In this document: positions 4,258 through 20,888 of the stretch, piece after piece | Layout: each line of letters begins with the position of its first letter | Position numbering within the stretch: position 1 is the first letter of the stretch | From: a virus | Virus record (IMG/VR): IMGVR_UViG_3300031772_001877 | Location: 1-33,811 of that record | Strand: one strand, 5' to 3' | DNA: 33,811 nucleotides | The notes under the pieces: model-generated | Seen by the model: only the letters and a program-made list of their open reading frames with translations | Told to the model about the DNA's origin: nothing | Databases searched by the model: none | Made by a program: the position numbers and the translations under genes

Positions 4258-4962
4258 TCAATTCACCATCAACCTATCGCCAAAATCAGAAAACCGTAGC
4301 CTCGATTTCAAGGCAAAGCGATAGATTTCCATCGTCTGTTCTATGCCCACAAATGCGGCCACAAGCGCAAGCAACGCTTCTCCGGGATAATGAAAATTGG
4401 TTAAAAGTCCATTGACCATTTTAAATTTATGTCCAGGGATTATCAATAAGTCCGAATACCCTTGATTTAGCCCCAGCTTATCTTGTGCATACGTTTCAAG
4501 AGATTTAACAACCGTCGTCCCGATAGCAAAGGAAGGGACCAACGGAACCATATCGAATCTGTAATATTCGGTATTCGATATTCCACGCTCATAGAAATCA
4601 TCTTCGGAAAGTCTTCCATTTCTAGGAGCCTCCAAAGTAACATACTGAATATTCAGTCTCTCAAGTATTTCTTTTGTTATTGGTAATCCCGCCGATGGTA
4701 CGGCCCACGTTCTTCCCGCCTGTGCATATATAGGCTCATGCCCGAACAGATGCCTACACGCGGGATCGAGTTTTGCGTTATTCGCGTAGCACAGTTCCTT
4801 CCCAATGATCGAGGGGAAATCCGCAAATTTGTGCATACGGATAAGCCCTGTCTTGCGCGTGAAGACCAATAGCTTTACATCAAATTCCCAATCCTTCCGA
4901 TAAGACGGGATAAGATCGTTCGGAAGATCAAATGAAATCAATTTTTTATCAAAGACTGGCAT
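4258..4962 (-). CDS. queA-like: Miniature QueA-like protein (S-adenosylmethionine:tRNA ribosyltransferase-isomerase family)
   Basis: The 234-aa product aligns by eye with both ends of QueA, which transfers the ribosyl group of S-adenosylmethionine to preQ1 in tRNA. FDLPNDLIPSYR matches the QueA N-terminus. AVPSAGLPITKEILERL matches the PTAGLHF region, and IGTTVVKSLET, IIPGHKFKMVNGLLTNFHYP and RLRFSDFGDRLMV match the C-terminal core. Bacterial QueA is about 340-356 aa; here about 90 residues between the NNTRVIPARLFG-like segment and the PTAGLHF-like segment are missing, which is the inserted second domain. The His of TAGLHF is Pro, HVGAGTF is absent, and MHSEY is SNTEY. Catalysis as QueA is therefore doubtful. 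The ATG shares an A with the TGA of the distal tail gene (TGATG) and the next gene starts 2 nt after this stop, so it is co-translated with tail genes. Family membership is confident; function is not. Confidence 0.8.
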   Translation of the reverse strand: MPVFDKKLISFDLPNDLIPSYRKDWEFDVKLLVFTRKTGLIRMHKFADFPSIIGKELCYANNAKLDPACRHLFGHEPIYAQAGRTWAVPSAGLPITKEILERLNIQYVTLEAPRNGRLSEDDFYERGISNTEYYRFDMVPLVPSFAIGTTVVKSLETYAQDKLGLNQGYSDLLIIPGHKFKMVNGLLTNFHYPGEALLALVAAFVGIEQTMEIYRFALKSRLRFSDFGDRLMVN

Positions 4963-5735
4963 CAATATCTTTCTTTGTATGTGAATGTATATTGTGCGGG
5001 GGCCCCCTCAACTTCAATCGTATTATTCCCGGCATCAAGCCAAAGGAACGTACCATAGAAATAAGTCAACTTATCTACGGTATCGACCTTAACAGTATAA
5101 CCAAGATTATCAATAACAAGCGTACTTCCATTCAGCACAGTCGTCATATACTTCTGAAGATACCCTGTAGTTAAATTCCGGATTACAACGTAAAGAGAAG
5201 GGTAGCCTCCGTTTACCAAAACAGAAGTTGAAAAGAAAACATATGATCCCCCACCATTGGCAACGACAAACTGTTTCTTGTAGATATGATTGGTAATATC
5301 TACGGGAGTATCGCCAGAAGTAAGACTTTCTACCTCCGGAGTAGGATCGGTTTCGGCATATTCAAACGGATCGGGACACGCGAAGCTGATTTCTATAGCC
5401 GCCGCCAACATGGCCGATCCGGGTATCCATGCCCACGAAAAATTTTCTTTAATCGCGTTGTAATACCTATCATTAAAATAATAAAGTTTCTTCTGCTCAT
5501 ATCCTAAAGCAGCTTCAAGCTCTCTTATTTTATCCCTAGTATCTTCGTCGCTCGTCCCGTATATCACTCCCTGTAATCTGATTCTCCTTATGTCAAGAAC
5601 GGGTTGAGATGCGGAGACTGCCCCATGCCGTTTCGGCATTCCCCTGAAATCAAGGCGATTCGGCATCGACTCATTCTGTAATTCGATATAATCGGTTATA
5701 TCTAGATCGCCAAATTTAATTAAATGAGTCGCCAT
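4962..5735 (-). CDS. Distal tail protein (Dit-like)
   Basis: The 257-aa protein starts at an ATG 8 nt after the tape measure stop, behind a clear AAGGAGAG site. The N-terminal half has the layout of siphophage distal tail proteins: a beta-rich start (MATHLIKFGDLDITDYIEL), then IRLQGVIYGTSDEDTRDKIRELEAAL followed by KKLYYFNDRYYNA, the usual helix and strand before the ring-closing strands. The C-terminal half (residues about 130-257) is beta-rich and may be a galectin-like or carbohydrate-binding-like lobe. Dit proteins form the hexameric ring joining the tail tube to the hub. Its position directly after the tape measure supports the call. Confidence 0.8.
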   Translation of the reverse strand: MATHLIKFGDLDITDYIELQNESMPNRLDFRGMPKRHGAVSASQPVLDIRRIRLQGVIYGTSDEDTRDKIRELEAALGYEQKKLYYFNDRYYNAIKENFSWAWIPGSAMLAAAIEISFACPDPFEYAETDPTPEVESLTSGDTPVDITNHIYKKQFVVANGGGSYVFFSTSVLVNGGYPSLYVVIRNLTTGYLQKYMTTVLNGSTLVIDNLGYTVKVDTVDKLTYFYGTFLWLDAGNNTIEVEGAPAQYTFTYKERY

Positions 5736-12345: not shown

Positions 12346-12863
12346 GGATTCCCCTTAATCTTTTTTTGTATCAAAGCCTTTACAGCCCTAACAAGTCTAG
12401 GCTGCATCCCTTTTATTGTGGGCCTCAAAAATGGATAACTTCTATGACCCGGATGATTTACCAGTTTTGCCCATGTAAATATCAACCCCATCTCTTTCTC
12501 TGTAACCGGATCGTAAAGCCTCATCTTTGGCCTTGAATATGTATACCAAAAGAGAGCTTTCCTTCTTATAGGTTTAATTATATGCGGTTTTGATCCGTAT
12601 TCTATTGGCCTCGCATATCTACGCGAAGAGCCGATTACCATATCTATTTCATTTGTTCCAAATCCTCTGACCTCTCCTATAACTCTCGAAAGATTTCTAG
12701 TTTCTCCCTTCCTCGCCAGCCTTCCAGCGATATCTTCCATCCGGAGGACAACAGTATCGGCAAGCAATTTCATTTCTTGAGATTTGATAAGATCGGCAAG
12801 GCCATTTATTTTTATAGTGGCCTTCTCTTCTCCCTTGATAATAACTTGAAATTTGAAATTCAT
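12342..12863 (-). CDS. HK97 gp10-like tail completion / neck protein
   Basis: The 173-aa protein carries the family signature: RRYARPIEYGSKPHIIKP, then VNHPGHRSYPFLRPTI near the end, matching 'yA.~vEyGt.ph.i.p ... h~PG..~~PFlrPA~'. It has helices at the N-terminus (LADLIKSQEMKLLADTVVLRM). It overlaps both neighbours by ATGA. In most related phages this gene follows the connector and head closure; here it precedes them. Confidence 0.8.
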   Translation of the reverse strand: MNFKFQVIIKGEEKATIKINGLADLIKSQEMKLLADTVVLRMEDIAGRLARKGETRNLSRVIGEVRGFGTNEIDMVIGSSRRYARPIEYGSKPHIIKPIRRKALFWYTYSRPKMRLYDPVTEKEMGLIFTWAKLVNHPGHRSYPFLRPTIKGMQPRLVRAVKALIQKKIKGNP

Positions 12864-13579
12864 AACCCGTATTGAGTCCTGAACGCCGCCTCTTCCTGTC
12901 CGGTAAGATGTCGATAATAAGCGCCCTTCGCAAGAGCCCGCATCGGATCGCGCTTTATCCGTATAACGTGCGCGTGCGCGAGCTTTGCCCCTGGCAAATT
13001 ATCTACGTTCTTTGCCCTTTGGAGAATATCATTGATAAAGATTGCATGATGGGCCCCGGCATAATGAATCCCCGGAGAATGCTTGAAAATCCGAAGGATC
13101 GGATAGGGAACCGTATTATCATCCCTCTCGATCATGACGTTATAGGCATCCTTCTGGAGACTATCCATTTCGATTCTATTAACGAGTCTTTCATCCGCGT
13201 CAATGACAAAATAATAATCTCCATCTTTACCAACTAGATATTTATTTCGTTTGATGTATTCGTGATCCCAAGGTTTGAAATCTCCCGTCGATTCGTCAAA
13301 CTCTGTAGGCTCGATTACCTCCGCTCCCGCGCTCTTCAGGATTTCAACCGTCTTATCTGGAGAACGTACAACCGTAAAACGCATTAATTGGTCCGCTATC
13401 GTTTTCTCGCCTCTCTCTATGCACAAAGCAATCTGCTTTTTATTTTCTTCGATAAAAGATTTATAGGCCCCATCCACGGCTACAACCCTAGCTTCCGGAT
13501 TATTCTTCTTTATGGACTCCAGACATTCCGGAAGCATATATTCCTCTTGGTATACGTTCAGGCAGAAGATTAATCCCAT
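12860..13579 (-). CDS. Glycosyltransferase, GT2-like
   Basis: The ATG at 13579 is preferred over an upstream TTG. The 239-aa protein opens MGLIFCLNVYQEEYMLPECLESI, the standard GT-A start, followed by VVAVDGAYKSF and the metal-binding-like VIDADERLVN. The acceptor half has GIHYAGAHHAIF and a His-rich KLAHAHVIRIK. Such enzymes transfer sugar from a nucleotide sugar. It is the first gene after the major capsid gene and is read together with neck genes, which suggests a virion protein or host surface glycan as target (inference). The ribosome site is weak, and a strong hairpin lies just upstream. Confidence 0.75.
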   Translation of the reverse strand: MGLIFCLNVYQEEYMLPECLESIKKNNPEARVVAVDGAYKSFIEENKKQIALCIERGEKTIADQLMRFTVVRSPDKTVEILKSAGAEVIEPTEFDESTGDFKPWDHEYIKRNKYLVGKDGDYYFVIDADERLVNRIEMDSLQKDAYNVMIERDDNTVPYPILRIFKHSPGIHYAGAHHAIFINDILQRAKNVDNLPGAKLAHAHVIRIKRDPMRALAKGAYYRHLTGQEEAAFRTQYGL

Positions 13580-13605
13580 GATTATCAATCCATCAATAGC
13601 ATGAT

Positions 13606-15722: not shown

Positions 15723-17273
15723 CTACTTTTGCTTACCAATAACGGCCTTGACTCCCGGAGCTAACTGAATCGTTCTATAGGAATCATTGCTAAAAGTACC
15801 CGGCTCCTTCTGGCGTAGACGGAAGGAATCCTCCGTCTCCTCCACATTAGAAGAGGCGAATTCATGATCTTTCGCCCAAGTCTTCGCATCCTCCTTTGTA
15901 AATTTAACTTTATCAAAGATTAAACTCTGAATCTTTGTCGGTTCCTTTTTGTAAATGGAAGACCCGAATAGTTTCTTTATGGTAATTTTTCTAATTCCAC
16001 GCTTCTTCATTTCCTTCGCGCAAGGCTTACAAATTTTTTCCACTTCATCCAGATCAATCTTTGTATCCGAAAGATGCTTCGACGTTTTCTGTTTATTCGC
16101 TTCGATTGCCGCCAAATGTCTGAAAGCATCCTCACGATTATCATGGCATCCAAGCACTTTACTCTCGTCATGCGTAAGGACGCACCATTGATTGCCGCGT
16201 CTACGGATAACCTTTTCTATATCAATCTGTGATTTAAGAATTGTAGAGAATATTTTGGTAATTGAAAGCGGATCGAATTCCATTGCATCAGCCTTCGATA
16301 CATCAGATTTACCAAACATCGGAGCCTTGCTTATATCTTTGGCCCTTCCTGCCATTGAAAATCCAGTATACTTCCCGCTCTTAACATCTCTCCAAAGATC
16401 ATCATTTACAATCTTATGCACTTGAACCCATGAGCCTTTACGAACAATTTGAGTCCCTTCTATATAATTGCATGGAGCCAAGAAATTCTCCACAAGAACA
16501 ACGTCCTTCTTCTCCAGTTTCTTCTCATGCATAAGTCCGATAGTCTGACTCTTTACCATGTATCGGTGACAAGCCTTTTCAATTTCATCGGGGCTTGCGG
16601 AATCGTTTTGCGCGTCTACAATATCGGGCTCATAAACTACCCCGCCAACAAGACGCTTTTCAACGTCTATCTTTGTAAATTCAAAAGTAGACTCCCAACC
16701 GCAAGAACCATCAGACTCTTTGTTGGTAACTTTGAAATCTGTGCGCTTCTTTATATTTACTTTGCCGGGATGGTCACTGGTATAATTCCCAATTTCAACA
16801 GGGAGGACAAGAAAATCATCTATGTTATGCGAATGCACAGGATCGCCAGCTTCCTCCGTAGCCCCAACCCCGTCCTCCGATAGATCATTGATCTTATGAA
16901 TATGCTCGTCTTCCAGATCGGGAGGAGTTTCAGCCGTAAGCGTATCTGTAATTTCCTGTTTAACAATATTACCTATGGTTTTTTTGAATGCTTCATGAAG
17001 TTTCTTTAGAATGATTTCTGGAATCTCCACCCCTCTATTATGGAACTCCCGGCGCATGGCAATTTCCGCCTGAAGTCCCTTTACTATTTCGGATGAATGC
17101 TGAGGATTCTCCGGTATGGACTCGAAATCGGAATGCAGAAGATGATATAGATTCTTTAGCGATTCATCCGACAAATCTCCAAGATAATGAGTATCTCCCG
17201 CCAATGTAGCCGATCCAAAAAGATCGGAAGATGATAGGGGCCCTTCTTTTTCAATCATCCCCGGCTTTGACAT
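15723..17273 (-). CDS. Prohead protease, XkdF-like serine protease
   Basis: The 516-aa protein starts behind AGGAGAG. Residues 206-310 match the XkdF-like protease domain: RLVGGVVYEPDIVDAQND, IEKACHRYM, IGLMH (His249, likely catalytic), LAPCNY, KGSWVQVHKIVNDDLWRDVK and TGFSMAGRA (Ser306, likely nucleophile). Extra modules are a HIH...HSH His pair motif (about 124-149), an LGCHDNREDAFRHLAAIEA segment (about 374-392) with QWCVLTHDES before it, and a C-terminal domain (FTKEDAKTWAKDHEF ... APGVKAVIGKQK) common in phage protease-region proteins. It matures the prohead by cleaving capsid and scaffold. It is much longer than simple prohead proteases because of these added modules. Confidence 0.85.
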   Translation of the reverse strand: MSKPGMIEKEGPLSSSDLFGSATLAGDTHYLGDLSDESLKNLYHLLHSDFESIPENPQHSSEIVKGLQAEIAMRREFHNRGVEIPEIILKKLHEAFKKTIGNIVKQEITDTLTAETPPDLEDEHIHKINDLSEDGVGATEEAGDPVHSHNIDDFLVLPVEIGNYTSDHPGKVNIKKRTDFKVTNKESDGSCGWESTFEFTKIDVEKRLVGGVVYEPDIVDAQNDSASPDEIEKACHRYMVKSQTIGLMHEKKLEKKDVVLVENFLAPCNYIEGTQIVRKGSWVQVHKIVNDDLWRDVKSGKYTGFSMAGRAKDISKAPMFGKSDVSKADAMEFDPLSITKIFSTILKSQIDIEKVIRRRGNQWCVLTHDESKVLGCHDNREDAFRHLAAIEANKQKTSKHLSDTKIDLDEVEKICKPCAKEMKKRGIRKITIKKLFGSSIYKKEPTKIQSLIFDKVKFTKEDAKTWAKDHEFASSNVEETEDSFRLRQKEPGTFSNDSYRTIQLAPGVKAVIGKQK

Positions 17274-17292: not shown

Positions 17293-17736
17293 TTATAGAC
17301 GCGGAGGCTCCGTTACAAAGGTTACAGAAACGGGAATTAATTTATGCCTTATTGAAACTAGATAATTTATGGATTTCTCTACAGAGTTTATCAATTCTAC
17401 AAGCGTCGTCTTATGGCAGTCTATATCAAACCAGAATGCCGCCTTTACCATTGTCCTATACGGCCTTATCTTATAGCAGCCGTTATATCCTATAGGAGCT
17501 TGAATAATCTCCTCTCCATGTTTATGCAATGGGCATCTTCCGCAAATCCCTTTGCATCCCACCCTATCCGTAGTCTTCCTATAATTCCGGCAGTATGCAC
17601 ATTGAAAATATTCAGTTAGCTTTATCGCCTCTACTCTTGCCTCTTCCATAGCTCCGCAAGTCAAAGCGGATTTGAGTCCGTCTCTGACTGCGGTTAATTT
17701 TGTCAGAGCCTCAAGGAATATTTCACCGGGATTCAT
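17293..17736 (-). CDS. Cys-rich protein, possible zinc binder
   Basis: The 147-aa protein overlaps the end of the spermidine synthase gene by 14 nt. It has a helical start and a Cys cluster at residues about 46-69 (CAYCRNY ... GCKGICGRCPLHKH) that could hold one or two zinc ions, plus a second helix near the end. No family recognised. Because it is coupled to the polyamine pair and precedes the protease gene, either a metabolic partner or a structural accessory role is possible. Confidence 0.55.
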   Translation of the reverse strand: MNPGEIFLEALTKLTAVRDGLKSALTCGAMEEARVEAIKLTEYFQCAYCRNYRKTTDRVGCKGICGRCPLHKHGEEIIQAPIGYNGCYKIRPYRTMVKAAFWFDIDCHKTTLVELINSVEKSINYLVSIRHKLIPVSVTFVTEPPRL

Positions 17737-18544
17737 ATTCGATAGCCTCTATATGCTCGAAGAGTTCATAGTATTCCAGTTCTTCCGGCCCTACCTCTGT
17801 AGCTTTACCAAAAGCTGTTTTGATATGGCGCTCCGTTGCGTATCGACAAGCCGCCGGGATATCTCTTTGTTGCGAAAGATTTGTCTTGCTCGAAATCATG
17901 AAACTATCATGAGCCCCACGCCTGTCATAATAGACATCATAATTCCAAAGATAATATCCGAACTCAAGCATATTCCTGGCATATCTCGCCAGATACTCCG
18001 TATGCACACTGGTTTGAGCGGAGAGAATGCCATTAGGCTTCAGCCTCGAAACAAATAGATTGATAATATCTGGAGAAAATAAATCGTCATATTTCTTGGC
18101 CGCATTCGCTCCGGAAGGAGAAGGAAAATCTAAGATTACCAAATCGTATTCTTCTTTTGATTCCTTCGCAAAATCTATGGCGTTCTTTATATGGACTTTA
18201 CATTTTTCGTCTAAAAGCGATTTACAATTCTGTCCCACAAGCATCTTATCTTCACTGAAGAGATTAATCATCTCTCCATCTATTTCTACCAGATCAATCT
18301 CAACGTTACCAAATCTTAATATTTCCCTTGCCGCCAATCCATCCCCCCCGCCCGCGATAAGCACGCGGTCAAGGCCCGCGCACGCGCAAGCGGGGATCGT
18401 CGCTATAGACTCATGGTAGCGATACTCAAACGCGGATGCATATTGCCATGTCGTATCCAGATAGAGGATATGCTCTCCTCTATAAATTGGATCATTGGCA
18501 ATAGTGATTCTTTGAAATTTACTTTGTTTATCAATGATATTCAT
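17723..18544 (-). CDS. speE: Spermidine synthase-like aminopropyltransferase
   Basis: The ATG at 18544 overlaps the decarboxylase stop (ATGA) with AAGG just upstream; longer starts would lie deep inside that gene. The 273-aa product has the family order: LYLDTTWQYASAFEYRYHE (Q34, Y43, H44, E45), LIAGGGDG (63-69), DLVEID (84-89) for the nucleotide part of decarboxylated S-adenosylmethionine, NAID (D123), and LDFPSPSG (138-145) in place of DS(S/T)DPxG. The first Asp of that motif (D139) is kept but the second, used for polyamine contact, is Ser. The C-terminal part differs from standard SpeE. The expected reaction moves an aminopropyl group to putrescine or another amine; the changed motif leaves the acceptor uncertain. 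Confidence 0.85.
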   Translation of the reverse strand: MNIIDKQSKFQRITIANDPIYRGEHILYLDTTWQYASAFEYRYHESIATIPACACAGLDRVLIAGGGDGLAAREILRFGNVEIDLVEIDGEMINLFSEDKMLVGQNCKSLLDEKCKVHIKNAIDFAKESKEEYDLVILDFPSPSGANAAKKYDDLFSPDIINLFVSRLKPNGILSAQTSVHTEYLARYARNMLEFGYYLWNYDVYYDRRGAHDSFMISSKTNLSQQRDIPAACRYATERHIKTAFGKATEVGPEELEYYELFEHIEAIEYESR

Positions 18545-18918
18545 ATATTCCTTAGTCCTGTCCAGTTTCCTAGAGCGTCCTTTTCCATGGCGAAATATCG
18601 CATCTCCGTAACCTGTTGCTTTTCCCTGAGCCATATGCATAGGGCTTCGTAATTGAAGTTTTTGCATCCAGCTATTTCAAGCTCTATGGTTTTATTCTCC
18701 GGATATGTGGTAACGATTGCATGGCTCTCATTGAGGAAAGCCACAAGCGTTTTCGCGCCCTTTGGTTTCCTGTAGTCTTCCTCCACGATCCTCCGTATGC
18801 GGAACCCCGCGATATCGCAAGCGGTCCTGAGAAGCTCCGTCATGGCGTATTTATTTCTGACGATATCCTTGCAACAGAAACGGAGAGTAGCGTTAAATAC
18901 GACAACATTACCAATCAT
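18541..18918 (-). CDS. speD: S-adenosylmethionine decarboxylase-like proenzyme
   Basis: The 125-aa protein has the size of the short bacterial class of AdoMet decarboxylase. LVAFLNESH contains the self-cleavage pair Glu64-Ser65 that would produce the pyruvoyl group, and TTYPE and Cys85 follow at the right spacing (20 residues from the Ser, as in Thermotoga SpeD). The processing His of the family (His68 in Thermotoga, in IHTWPE) is Thr70 here, and the Ser55 equivalent is Thr57. The adjacent spermidine synthase gene, joined by ATGA, strongly supports the assignment. Some SpeD-family members decarboxylate arginine or ornithine instead, so the altered residue makes substrate identity an open question. 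Confidence 0.85.
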   Translation of the reverse strand: MIGNVVVFNATLRFCCKDIVRNKYAMTELLRTACDIAGFRIRRIVEEDYRKPKGAKTLVAFLNESHAIVTTYPENKTIELEIAGCKNFNYEALCIWLREKQQVTEMRYFAMEKDALGNWTGLRNI

Positions 18919-20888
18919 AGTCTATCAAGCTCCTCTATACCCAGGATCAAGGCTTCCTCTTCCTGCTCTAGGAGCAGCCAATCCTTCCTAGTCCAAGAAA
19001 CGCCGCCCTCCCTTCCGACTATGCGAGCGTCTGAACTAAGACCTATTCTTTTCTTGGCTACCAAAGATATATAGGCGTCTGAATACTTTGATAATTCTTG
19101 GGTATACAGAATCCTCGAATCAGAATACTGATTCAGGATCATTGAGCGGAGGATTCTTGCCAATGAATCTTTAGTAAAGCTCTGTGTTACGAATACCCTC
19201 GAATCAGAAGTCTTGCTCGATTCCTGAGTCTTCAGGATTCTTGAATCAGACAGCCTACTTATTTCCTGAGTCTTGAATATCCTTGAGTCTGATGTTTGGT
19301 AGATATCGTATGTCGTAGCACCGGATATTTTGGCGTCAGAGTAAATATCTACAGCCTGAGTCTTTAATATTCTCGAATTAGATAGTTTGGTAATCTCCTG
19401 AGTCTTTAGGATTCTCGCATCTGACGTTTTATAGATTTCATAAACGCTAGATGTATATATCTTGGCATCTGAATATATTGATAACGATTGAGTTTTCAGG
19501 ATTCTGGCGTCAGATAGTTTATCAATAGACTGAGTTTTCAGGATTCTGGCGTCGGATAGTTTGCTAGTGCTTTGAGTCTTGAATATCCTCGAATCGGAAA
19601 GCCGATCAATAGATTGAGTCTTCAGAATCCTCGCATCCGAAAGCCGATCTATAGACTGGGTTTTTAGAATTCTGGCATCGGATGTTTTAAAGATTTCATA
19701 AACATTCGTGAAGTACGTCCTGGCATCTGAATATATTGATAACGATTGAGTCTTTAGGATTCTTGCGTCTGATAATTGATTCGCGCTTTGAGTCTTGAAT
19801 GCCCTTGCGTCAGACGGCCTATCAATGCTCTGAGTCTTGAATACCCTCGCGTCAGAAGTCTTCGATAGACTACTGAGCAGATATATCAGGGCATCCGAAA
19901 GTTTATCTATACTCTGTGTCTTTAGTATTCTGGCATCAGAGTATTGGCTTGTGCTTTGAGTCTTGAATACTCTTGCATCTGACAGCTTGCTATCAGCCTG
20001 AGTCTTGAAGATTCTGGTATCTGATAGTTTACTTGTCTCCTGAGTCTTGAATATCCTAGCATCGGATGTTTGGTATATATCGTAAGTAGTCGCTCCGAAT
20101 ATCTTTGCATCGGAGTATAGATACGTCTCTTGAGTCTTGAATACCCTGGAGTCTGAAGCCTTGCTTGCCTCCTGTGTCTTGAATGCTCTAGCGTCAGACA
20201 GTTTGCTTATGCTCTGAGTCTTCAGGATTCTCGCGTCAGATGTTTTGGTAATTTCATAGTAATACTTTGGACGGAGAGCCACTAGATAGCAGTTATTGAG
20301 CCTACCCGTATTCAGGGTACAAGTCTGATTGCTTGTCGCCCCGGCAGGAGTCTTTGAATAATCTCCTATACCCTGACTTGGATAGTTATTGGAATATGCG
20401 CTTTCATATTCCTCTGCCATACTGCTCGACCAACTGCTAAACGTAGCGCGGTTTTCCGTCCCGACAAACATTACCACTTTTGCGGTATCTGTTGCCGTTG
20501 TCAACCCTGTTGCCGTCGCCGTAGTGCTGGAAGCATTCGCCAGAGCCGTTGTAGTGGTATCTTCGGGAGTATATGTGCTGACGTTATACCACGCAGCAAT
20601 GACAGCCCTGATAGCCCCGCCGCCAGAATGGGTAACGGTAGGAGTACTATCTCCAGTTTGTAATACTCTCCTAAATAAAGTAGTCCTGAATCCGGTCCCG
20701 TTATTCAGCCCACTATTGATAACGGTCCAGTCTGCCGACATTGTTGCGGAGACGTTATCGCGGGAGGAAATAAAGCAATAAGCAACGTCTCCAGGTTCCC
20801 ATCCGCTAGGCAAGGCTGGAGCGACATTGCCGCTTGTGGCAGCGGCAGGAGTACCGTAACCCCTAAATTGTATGGTTTGGATTGCCAT
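18915..20888 (-). CDS. Putative head decoration / fibre protein with SDAR-KTQ repeats
   Basis: The 657-aa protein starts in a TAATG overlap. Residues 1-207 form a beta-sandwich-like domain (LPSGWEPGDVAYCFISSRDN, ADWTVINSGLNNGTG, TTTALANASSTTATATGL) of a type seen in phage and secreted surface proteins. Residues 211-625 are 29 degenerate units of SIDKLSDARILKTQ type, mostly 14 aa, with occasional 16-aa YDIYQ/YEIYK variants. The last 32 residues (SWTRKDWLLLEQEEEALIL) are a short helix-rich end. A rod or adhesive stalk projecting from the head is plausible given its position between portal and protease genes. No enzymatic motif is present, and the function is unproven. Confidence 0.65.
   Translation of the reverse strand: MAIQTIQFRGYGTPAAATSGNVAPALPSGWEPGDVAYCFISSRDNVSATMSADWTVINSGLNNGTGFRTTLFRRVLQTGDSTPTVTHSGGGAIRAVIAAWYNVSTYTPEDTTTTALANASSTTATATGLTTATDTAKVVMFVGTENRATFSSWSSSMAEEYESAYSNNYPSQGIGDYSKTPAGATSNQTCTLNTGRLNNCYLVALRPKYYYEITKTSDARILKTQSISKLSDARAFKTQEASKASDSRVFKTQETYLYSDAKIFGATTYDIYQTSDARIFKTQETSKLSDTRIFKTQADSKLSDARVFKTQSTSQYSDARILKTQSIDKLSDALIYLLSSLSKTSDARVFKTQSIDRPSDARAFKTQSANQLSDARILKTQSLSIYSDARTYFTNVYEIFKTSDARILKTQSIDRLSDARILKTQSIDRLSDSRIFKTQSTSKLSDARILKTQSIDKLSDARILKTQSLSIYSDAKIYTSSVYEIYKTSDARILKTQEITKLSNSRILKTQAVDIYSDAKISGATTYDIYQTSDSRIFKTQEISRLSDSRILKTQESSKTSDSRVFVTQSFTKDSLARILRSMILNQYSDSRILYTQELSKYSDAYISLVAKKRIGLSSDARIVGREGGVSWTRKDWLLLEQEEEALILGIEELDRL
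19014..20258 (-). repeat. 42-bp coding repeats (SDARILKTQ units)
   Basis: In-frame tandem repeats of mostly 42 bp, about 29 units, encode x-x-x-K/Q/I-x-S-D-A/S-R/K-I/V-L/F-K-T-Q. Three or four longer 30-aa cycles (YSDA(K/R)I...YDIYQTSDARI) punctuate the array. Neighbouring units differ largely at synonymous positions, though several pairs near 19490-19680 are almost identical, suggesting recent duplication or recombination. Confidence 0.9.

Follow-up and report, generated by a model that had tools for sequence, protein, structure and literature searches.

The 33,811 bases analysed here (the window), a complete linear IMG/VR record, encode translationally coupled homologues of two polyamine enzymes, SpeD and SpeE, among the head genes of a tailed phage. 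We tentatively interpret them as a phage aminopropyl-transfer pair with a changed acceptor, in which SpeD would still supply dcAdoMet. The pair as such is not new, since phage SpeD-SpeE pairs were described and tested in 2023 and make spermidine (PMC9992855). What is new is that the active sites are changed, that a second phage shares the SpeE changes, and that SpeE descends from the 7TM-SpeE lineage. The published pairs, the 7TM-SpeE lineage of DUF350/DUF4178 operons and the loss of Asp39 from SpeE (Phe in its place) were absent from the original prediction.

Gene pair and its genomic context

The minus strand of the window encodes a terminase, a portal, a head maturation protease, a major head protein (MCP), a head-tail adaptor and a tape measure, and the window is a tailed phage. 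Searches for tRNAs in the window and for close phage relatives, either of which might have pointed to the host, found none. Only one other phage of the lineage was found, IMGVR_UViG_3300037264_000969 (L012). Viral sequences scanned with SpeD, SpeE or the terminase as single queries gave no relatives, and scans with two-sequence alignments of SpeE and MCP recovered L012 alone. The genes around the pair are as follows.

18915..20888, minus strand: repeat-rich fibre-like protein, ATGA-coupled to SpeD; family matches only weak (Pfam, PHROG)
18541..18918, minus strand: SpeD-like protein, 125 aa, class 1b AdoMetDC fold; PF02675 4.4e-10
17723..18544, minus strand: SpeE-like aminopropyltransferase, soluble, 273 aa; PF01564 1.8e-27
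17293..17736, minus strand: Cys-rich ORF downstream of SpeE, with a 14-base overlap; 38% identical homologue in L012 in the equivalent place
15723..17273, minus strand: XkdF-type prohead protease; PF14550 3.5e-29, phrog_3017 1.2e-31; 49% identical in L012

The coordinates and the matches to PF02675 and PF01564 agree with the predicted SpeD-SpeE pair inside the head genes. The start of SpeE is an ATG overlapping the SpeD stop codon (ATGA), which gives 17723–18544; the 314-aa ORF listed for SpeE was rejected as an upstream over-extension. A second ATGA overlap joins the fibre-like gene to SpeD. The pair had been described as fused by an ATGA overlap between a head fibre-like gene and the prohead protease; the overlaps are there, but SpeE does not adjoin the protease, because the conserved Cys-rich ORF lies between them. 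Nor did the head fibre assignment hold for the upstream gene, which encodes a 657-aa protein with many SDARILKTQ-type repeats and no clear family. L012 has the same gene order, with SpeE followed by the Cys-rich ORF, the protease and other head genes. The L012 contig ends at SpeE, so SpeD is visible in one phage of the lineage only.

Two other genes of the window were recorded. Among the tail genes, a short homologue of QueA (tRNA preQ1 ribosyltransferase-isomerase; 4258–4965, minus strand, 235 aa, PF02547 5.6e-34) covers the two ends of the profile and little of its middle. A glycosyltransferase-like ORF (12860–13588, minus strand) without a Pfam or NCBIfam match lies between the MCP and neck genes, and L012 has one too.

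Active site and ancestry of SpeE

Both proteins of the pair passed the Pfam cut-offs, and neither reached the stricter NCBIfam ones (TIGR03330, 29.9 vs. 75.65 bits for SpeD; TIGR00417, 93.1 vs. 249.55 bits for SpeE), which counts against the aminopropyl-transfer reading preferred here. The SpeE model (pLDDT 85) resembled spermidine synthases with Z of about 30. His44, Asp68 (GGGDG) and Asp139 are kept and were invariant among the homologues compared. Matched by motif, they are His103, Asp127 and Asp196 of PfSpdS, where these residues contact dcAdoMet at its aminopropyl group (PMC4356361), and Asp139 corresponds to the catalytic base of human SpdSyn. SpeE has the fold, the catalytic Asp and, as judged from these motifs, the dcAdoMet-binding residues of a spermidine synthase.

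Two other positions are changed. The motif around the catalytic residue reads Asp139-Phe-Pro-Ser142-Pro, with the codons checked, and position 142 is Asp in 96 of 97 homologues; Phe39 likewise stands at a position that is Asp in 96/97. The prediction had read a Ser in place of an acidic residue, and this is not explained by a misplaced Asp in the alignment or by Ser being usual in SpeE. In PfSpdS the distal amine of putrescine is held by the residue equivalent to position 142, Asp199, which is reported to be invariant in spermidine synthases (PMC4356361). SpeE of the window has lost this putrescine-binding Asp. Only the window and L012 carry Ser here, and L012 SpeE, 50% identical to that of the window, has both Ser142 and Phe39. 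The same two changes in two phages must have been inherited and are neither errors nor single decay events.

Inheritance of Ser142 and Phe39 favours a changed acceptor, and the acceptor of SpeE is probably not plain putrescine, as far as can be read from the residues. An ordinary pathway, in which SpeD and SpeE together turn putrescine into spermidine in spite of the substitutions, seems unlikely to us. Characterised phage SpeD-SpeE pairs do work in this way (PMC9992855), and neither the folds nor the donor residues nor the catalytic Asp are disturbed; however, both phages have Ser at a residue reported to be invariant in spermidine synthases, Asp39 is gone too, and SpeE lies nearest to the 7TM family, for which the literature consulted establishes no product. 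Some other product or target than ordinary spermidine is therefore probable for the pair. To this extent the shared SpeE changes favour the non-standard product of the original prediction.

Changed catalytic positions in both genes and fast evolution could also mean that these are decaying host-derived genes without function. This is very improbable, since the frames are intact and tightly overlapping, the donor residues are kept, and SpeE is as conserved between the two phages as the capsid protein (54%).

The best NCBIfam model for SpeE was NF002956, the 7TM form (9e-44), matched over its catalytic part only (244–505 of 522) and with a score below its whole-protein cut-off (149.7 vs. 472 bits); classical models were weaker (9e-34 and 1.7e-26). 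The closest database proteins are also of the 7TM-SpeE type. A long N-terminal extension was present in 78 of the 80 genomic relatives, and 59/80 had a SpeD within 5 kb. The genomic 7TM-SpeE examples that were checked lie in DUF4178/DUF350 operons, linked by a survey to PSP envelope-stress systems (PMC11237479). The SpeE tree places the phage protein on the 7TM-SpeE side with 98% SH-aLRT, but its stem is very long and the classical outgroup consists of only three rows. By these comparisons, SpeE belongs to the 7TM-SpeE (PRK03612) lineage and is its catalytic domain in soluble form. It shares with that family the D-F-P-x-P motif and the frequent proximity to SpeD, but begins at the catalytic domain, without the 7TM part, stands apart from the operon partners, and has lost the second Asp and Asp39.

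The published pairs of uncultured Caudovirales are likewise a class 1b SpeD clustered with SpeE in a tailed-phage genome. The published pair has its closest homologues in gammaproteobacteria and restored spermidine (PMC9992855), whereas that of the window has changes in both active sites, a SpeE from the 7TM-SpeE lineage, and a place among head genes. Another cluster, in Microcystis phage MaAM05 (L003, 2868–5646), is annotated as two SpeD, SpeE and the agmatinase SpeB.

SpeD without the processing His

SpeD passed the gathering score of PF02675 (40.3 bits, cut-off 25). Its AlphaFold model (pLDDT 88) aligned near end to end with the class 1b AdoMetDC of T. maritima, TM0655 (1tlu_A/1tmi_A; Z 13.7, rmsd 2.5, 115 aligned), at an identity of about 14%; a PDB sequence search gave no match. 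SpeD has the AdoMetDC fold. It shares with TM0655 the Glu-Ser cleavage site and the catalytic Cys at T. maritima-like spacing (Glu64 GAG, Ser65 AGC, Cys85 TGC), and Thr57 (equivalent to Ser55), Pro73 of the [WY]PE motif and Glu74 are present as well, so that most of the surrounding motif is intact. The difference is Thr70 (ACC), at the position of the processing His68. These residues are as originally read. A shifted or realigned processing His was rejected, because the only His of SpeD is His66, the general one of the ESH motif. A sequencing error is an unlikely source of Thr70, since turning ACC into either His codon, CAT or CAC, takes more than one base change.

Thr is not a standard residue at this position either. 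His was found in 144 of 148 other SpeDs and Asp in two (those of L019 and L020, described below), while the remaining two are distant or partial rows, unaligned or misaligned here. All 80 other viral SpeDs have His, but they come from a scan pattern permitting only His or Thr at position 70 and thus compare His with Thr without giving a frequency of His loss. His was also present in 64 of the 68 other aligned SpeDs; the genomic ones were collected through neighbouring SpeE genes and are free of this bias. A viral scan for His-less SpeD found none. The SpeD tree left the protein of the window unplaced, on a very long end branch (8.66). In Bacteroidota genomic SpeDs near 7TM-SpeE (e.g., L024, L037, and L071), Ser was noted at the catalytic Cys83 position.

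According to PMC10407285, T. maritima AdoMetDC cannot do without His68 for either self-processing or catalysis, so the phage SpeD may be inactive. On the other hand, a human AdoMetDC mutant in the corresponding His is still processed, only more slowly, and activation of PanD (aspartate decarboxylase) requires Thr57 (PMC3975893); Thr70 is therefore compatible with an active as well as with an inactive SpeD. From its residues and fold, SpeD may be an unusually processed AdoMetDC or may serve SpeE as a pseudoenzyme partner.

The original prediction also considered that a different amino acid might be decarboxylated, and some phage SpeDs have indeed turned into arginine or ornithine decarboxylases (PMC9992855). 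The authors who characterised such substrate-shifted SpeDs expected them to retain the processing His (PMC10407285), and the phage SpeD is coupled to an aminopropyltransferase, which argues for a reaction on AdoMet. Markers of the shifted enzymes are Gln/Thr/Phe/Tyr residues for ornithine decarboxylases and the loss of a Pro for arginine decarboxylases; the phage SpeD has Pro73 of the [WY]PE motif, which may or may not be the Pro concerned. An AdoMet-depleting enzyme directed against host methylation is a related possibility, and a phage SAM lyase was among the fold matches (Z 6.9); but this generic match was no better than those to unrelated ferredoxin-like folds, and a function modelled on the viral SAM lyase was rejected. 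A substrate shift or AdoMet depletion seems improbable.

There are precedents for a dead partner, namely the trypanosome prozyme and the AdoMetDC-like N-terminal domain of human spermine synthase. SpeD of the window could similarly be a pseudoenzyme that forms no pyruvoyl group and assists SpeE, or the host SpeD, in a structural or regulatory role, with SpeE taking dcAdoMet from the host. The loss of the His and the very long branch would suit such a role. The SpeD model also resembles the N-terminal domain of human spermine synthase (Z 9.7), a domain that this enzyme needs for activity because it mediates dimerisation (PMC12803844). There the SpeD-like fold and the SpeE domain form one fused chain that has lost AdoMetDC function, whereas the phage has separate genes with Glu-Ser and Cys kept.

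Further evidence comes from viral contigs L014–L021, which we take to be hydrothermal from their IMG sample numbers. Their SpeE is soluble, of the 7TM lineage and encoded among virion genes, as in the window, but it has the normal Asp (DYPDP motif) and forms a separate clade. In L019 and L020, SpeD overlaps SpeE, and the processing His is replaced by Asp and ESH by ESY, with Glu-Ser and Cys retained. With Thr in the window and Asp in these two, the processing His appears, from the alignment, to have been lost at least twice in SpeE-carrying viruses. The SpeDs of the L016 and L018 records (G004/G006) are located elsewhere and keep the His. The L014 and L021 records have SpeE, and a search for SpeD found none in them.

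The independent replacement of the His beside SpeE and the records with SpeE and no SpeD found both agree with a pseudoenzyme, while Glu64, Ser65 and Cys85, kept in the window as in L019/L020, would be needless for a purely structural role. We regard the pseudoenzyme as a possible but less probable explanation.

Proposed function of the pair

We return to the reading that we tentatively prefer, aminopropyl transfer to a changed acceptor with an active SpeD. SpeD and SpeE would be expressed along with the head genes. Thr70 would permit a slower or different self-cleavage, as Thr57 of PanD suggests, and SpeD would feed dcAdoMet to SpeE. SpeE would still bind dcAdoMet and, with its catalytic Asp and an altered acceptor pocket, would most likely transfer the aminopropyl group onto something other than plain putrescine. 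Thr70 may instead leave SpeD unable to mature; slower or different self-cleavage is favoured, as the cleavage motif is otherwise unaltered. A further variant, which we hold to be unlikely, is that of a late-expressed pair in which a SpeD-like pseudoenzyme aids the soluble 7TM-lineage SpeE and the aminopropyl group goes onto something other than a polyamine, for example a virion protein, lipid, or DNA. The roles originally suggested for the product, condensing DNA in the capsid or controlling the host, are speculative.

The pair represents a small, testable case of polyamine enzymes switching substrate in phages. Since the SpeE changes are common to two phages and fall on a residue that holds putrescine, the acceptor is open to direct search. 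A natural AdoMetDC without the processing His would serve as a probe of how pyruvoyl self-cleavage can work, and the ancestry of SpeE links phages to the 7TM-SpeE of envelope-stress operons.
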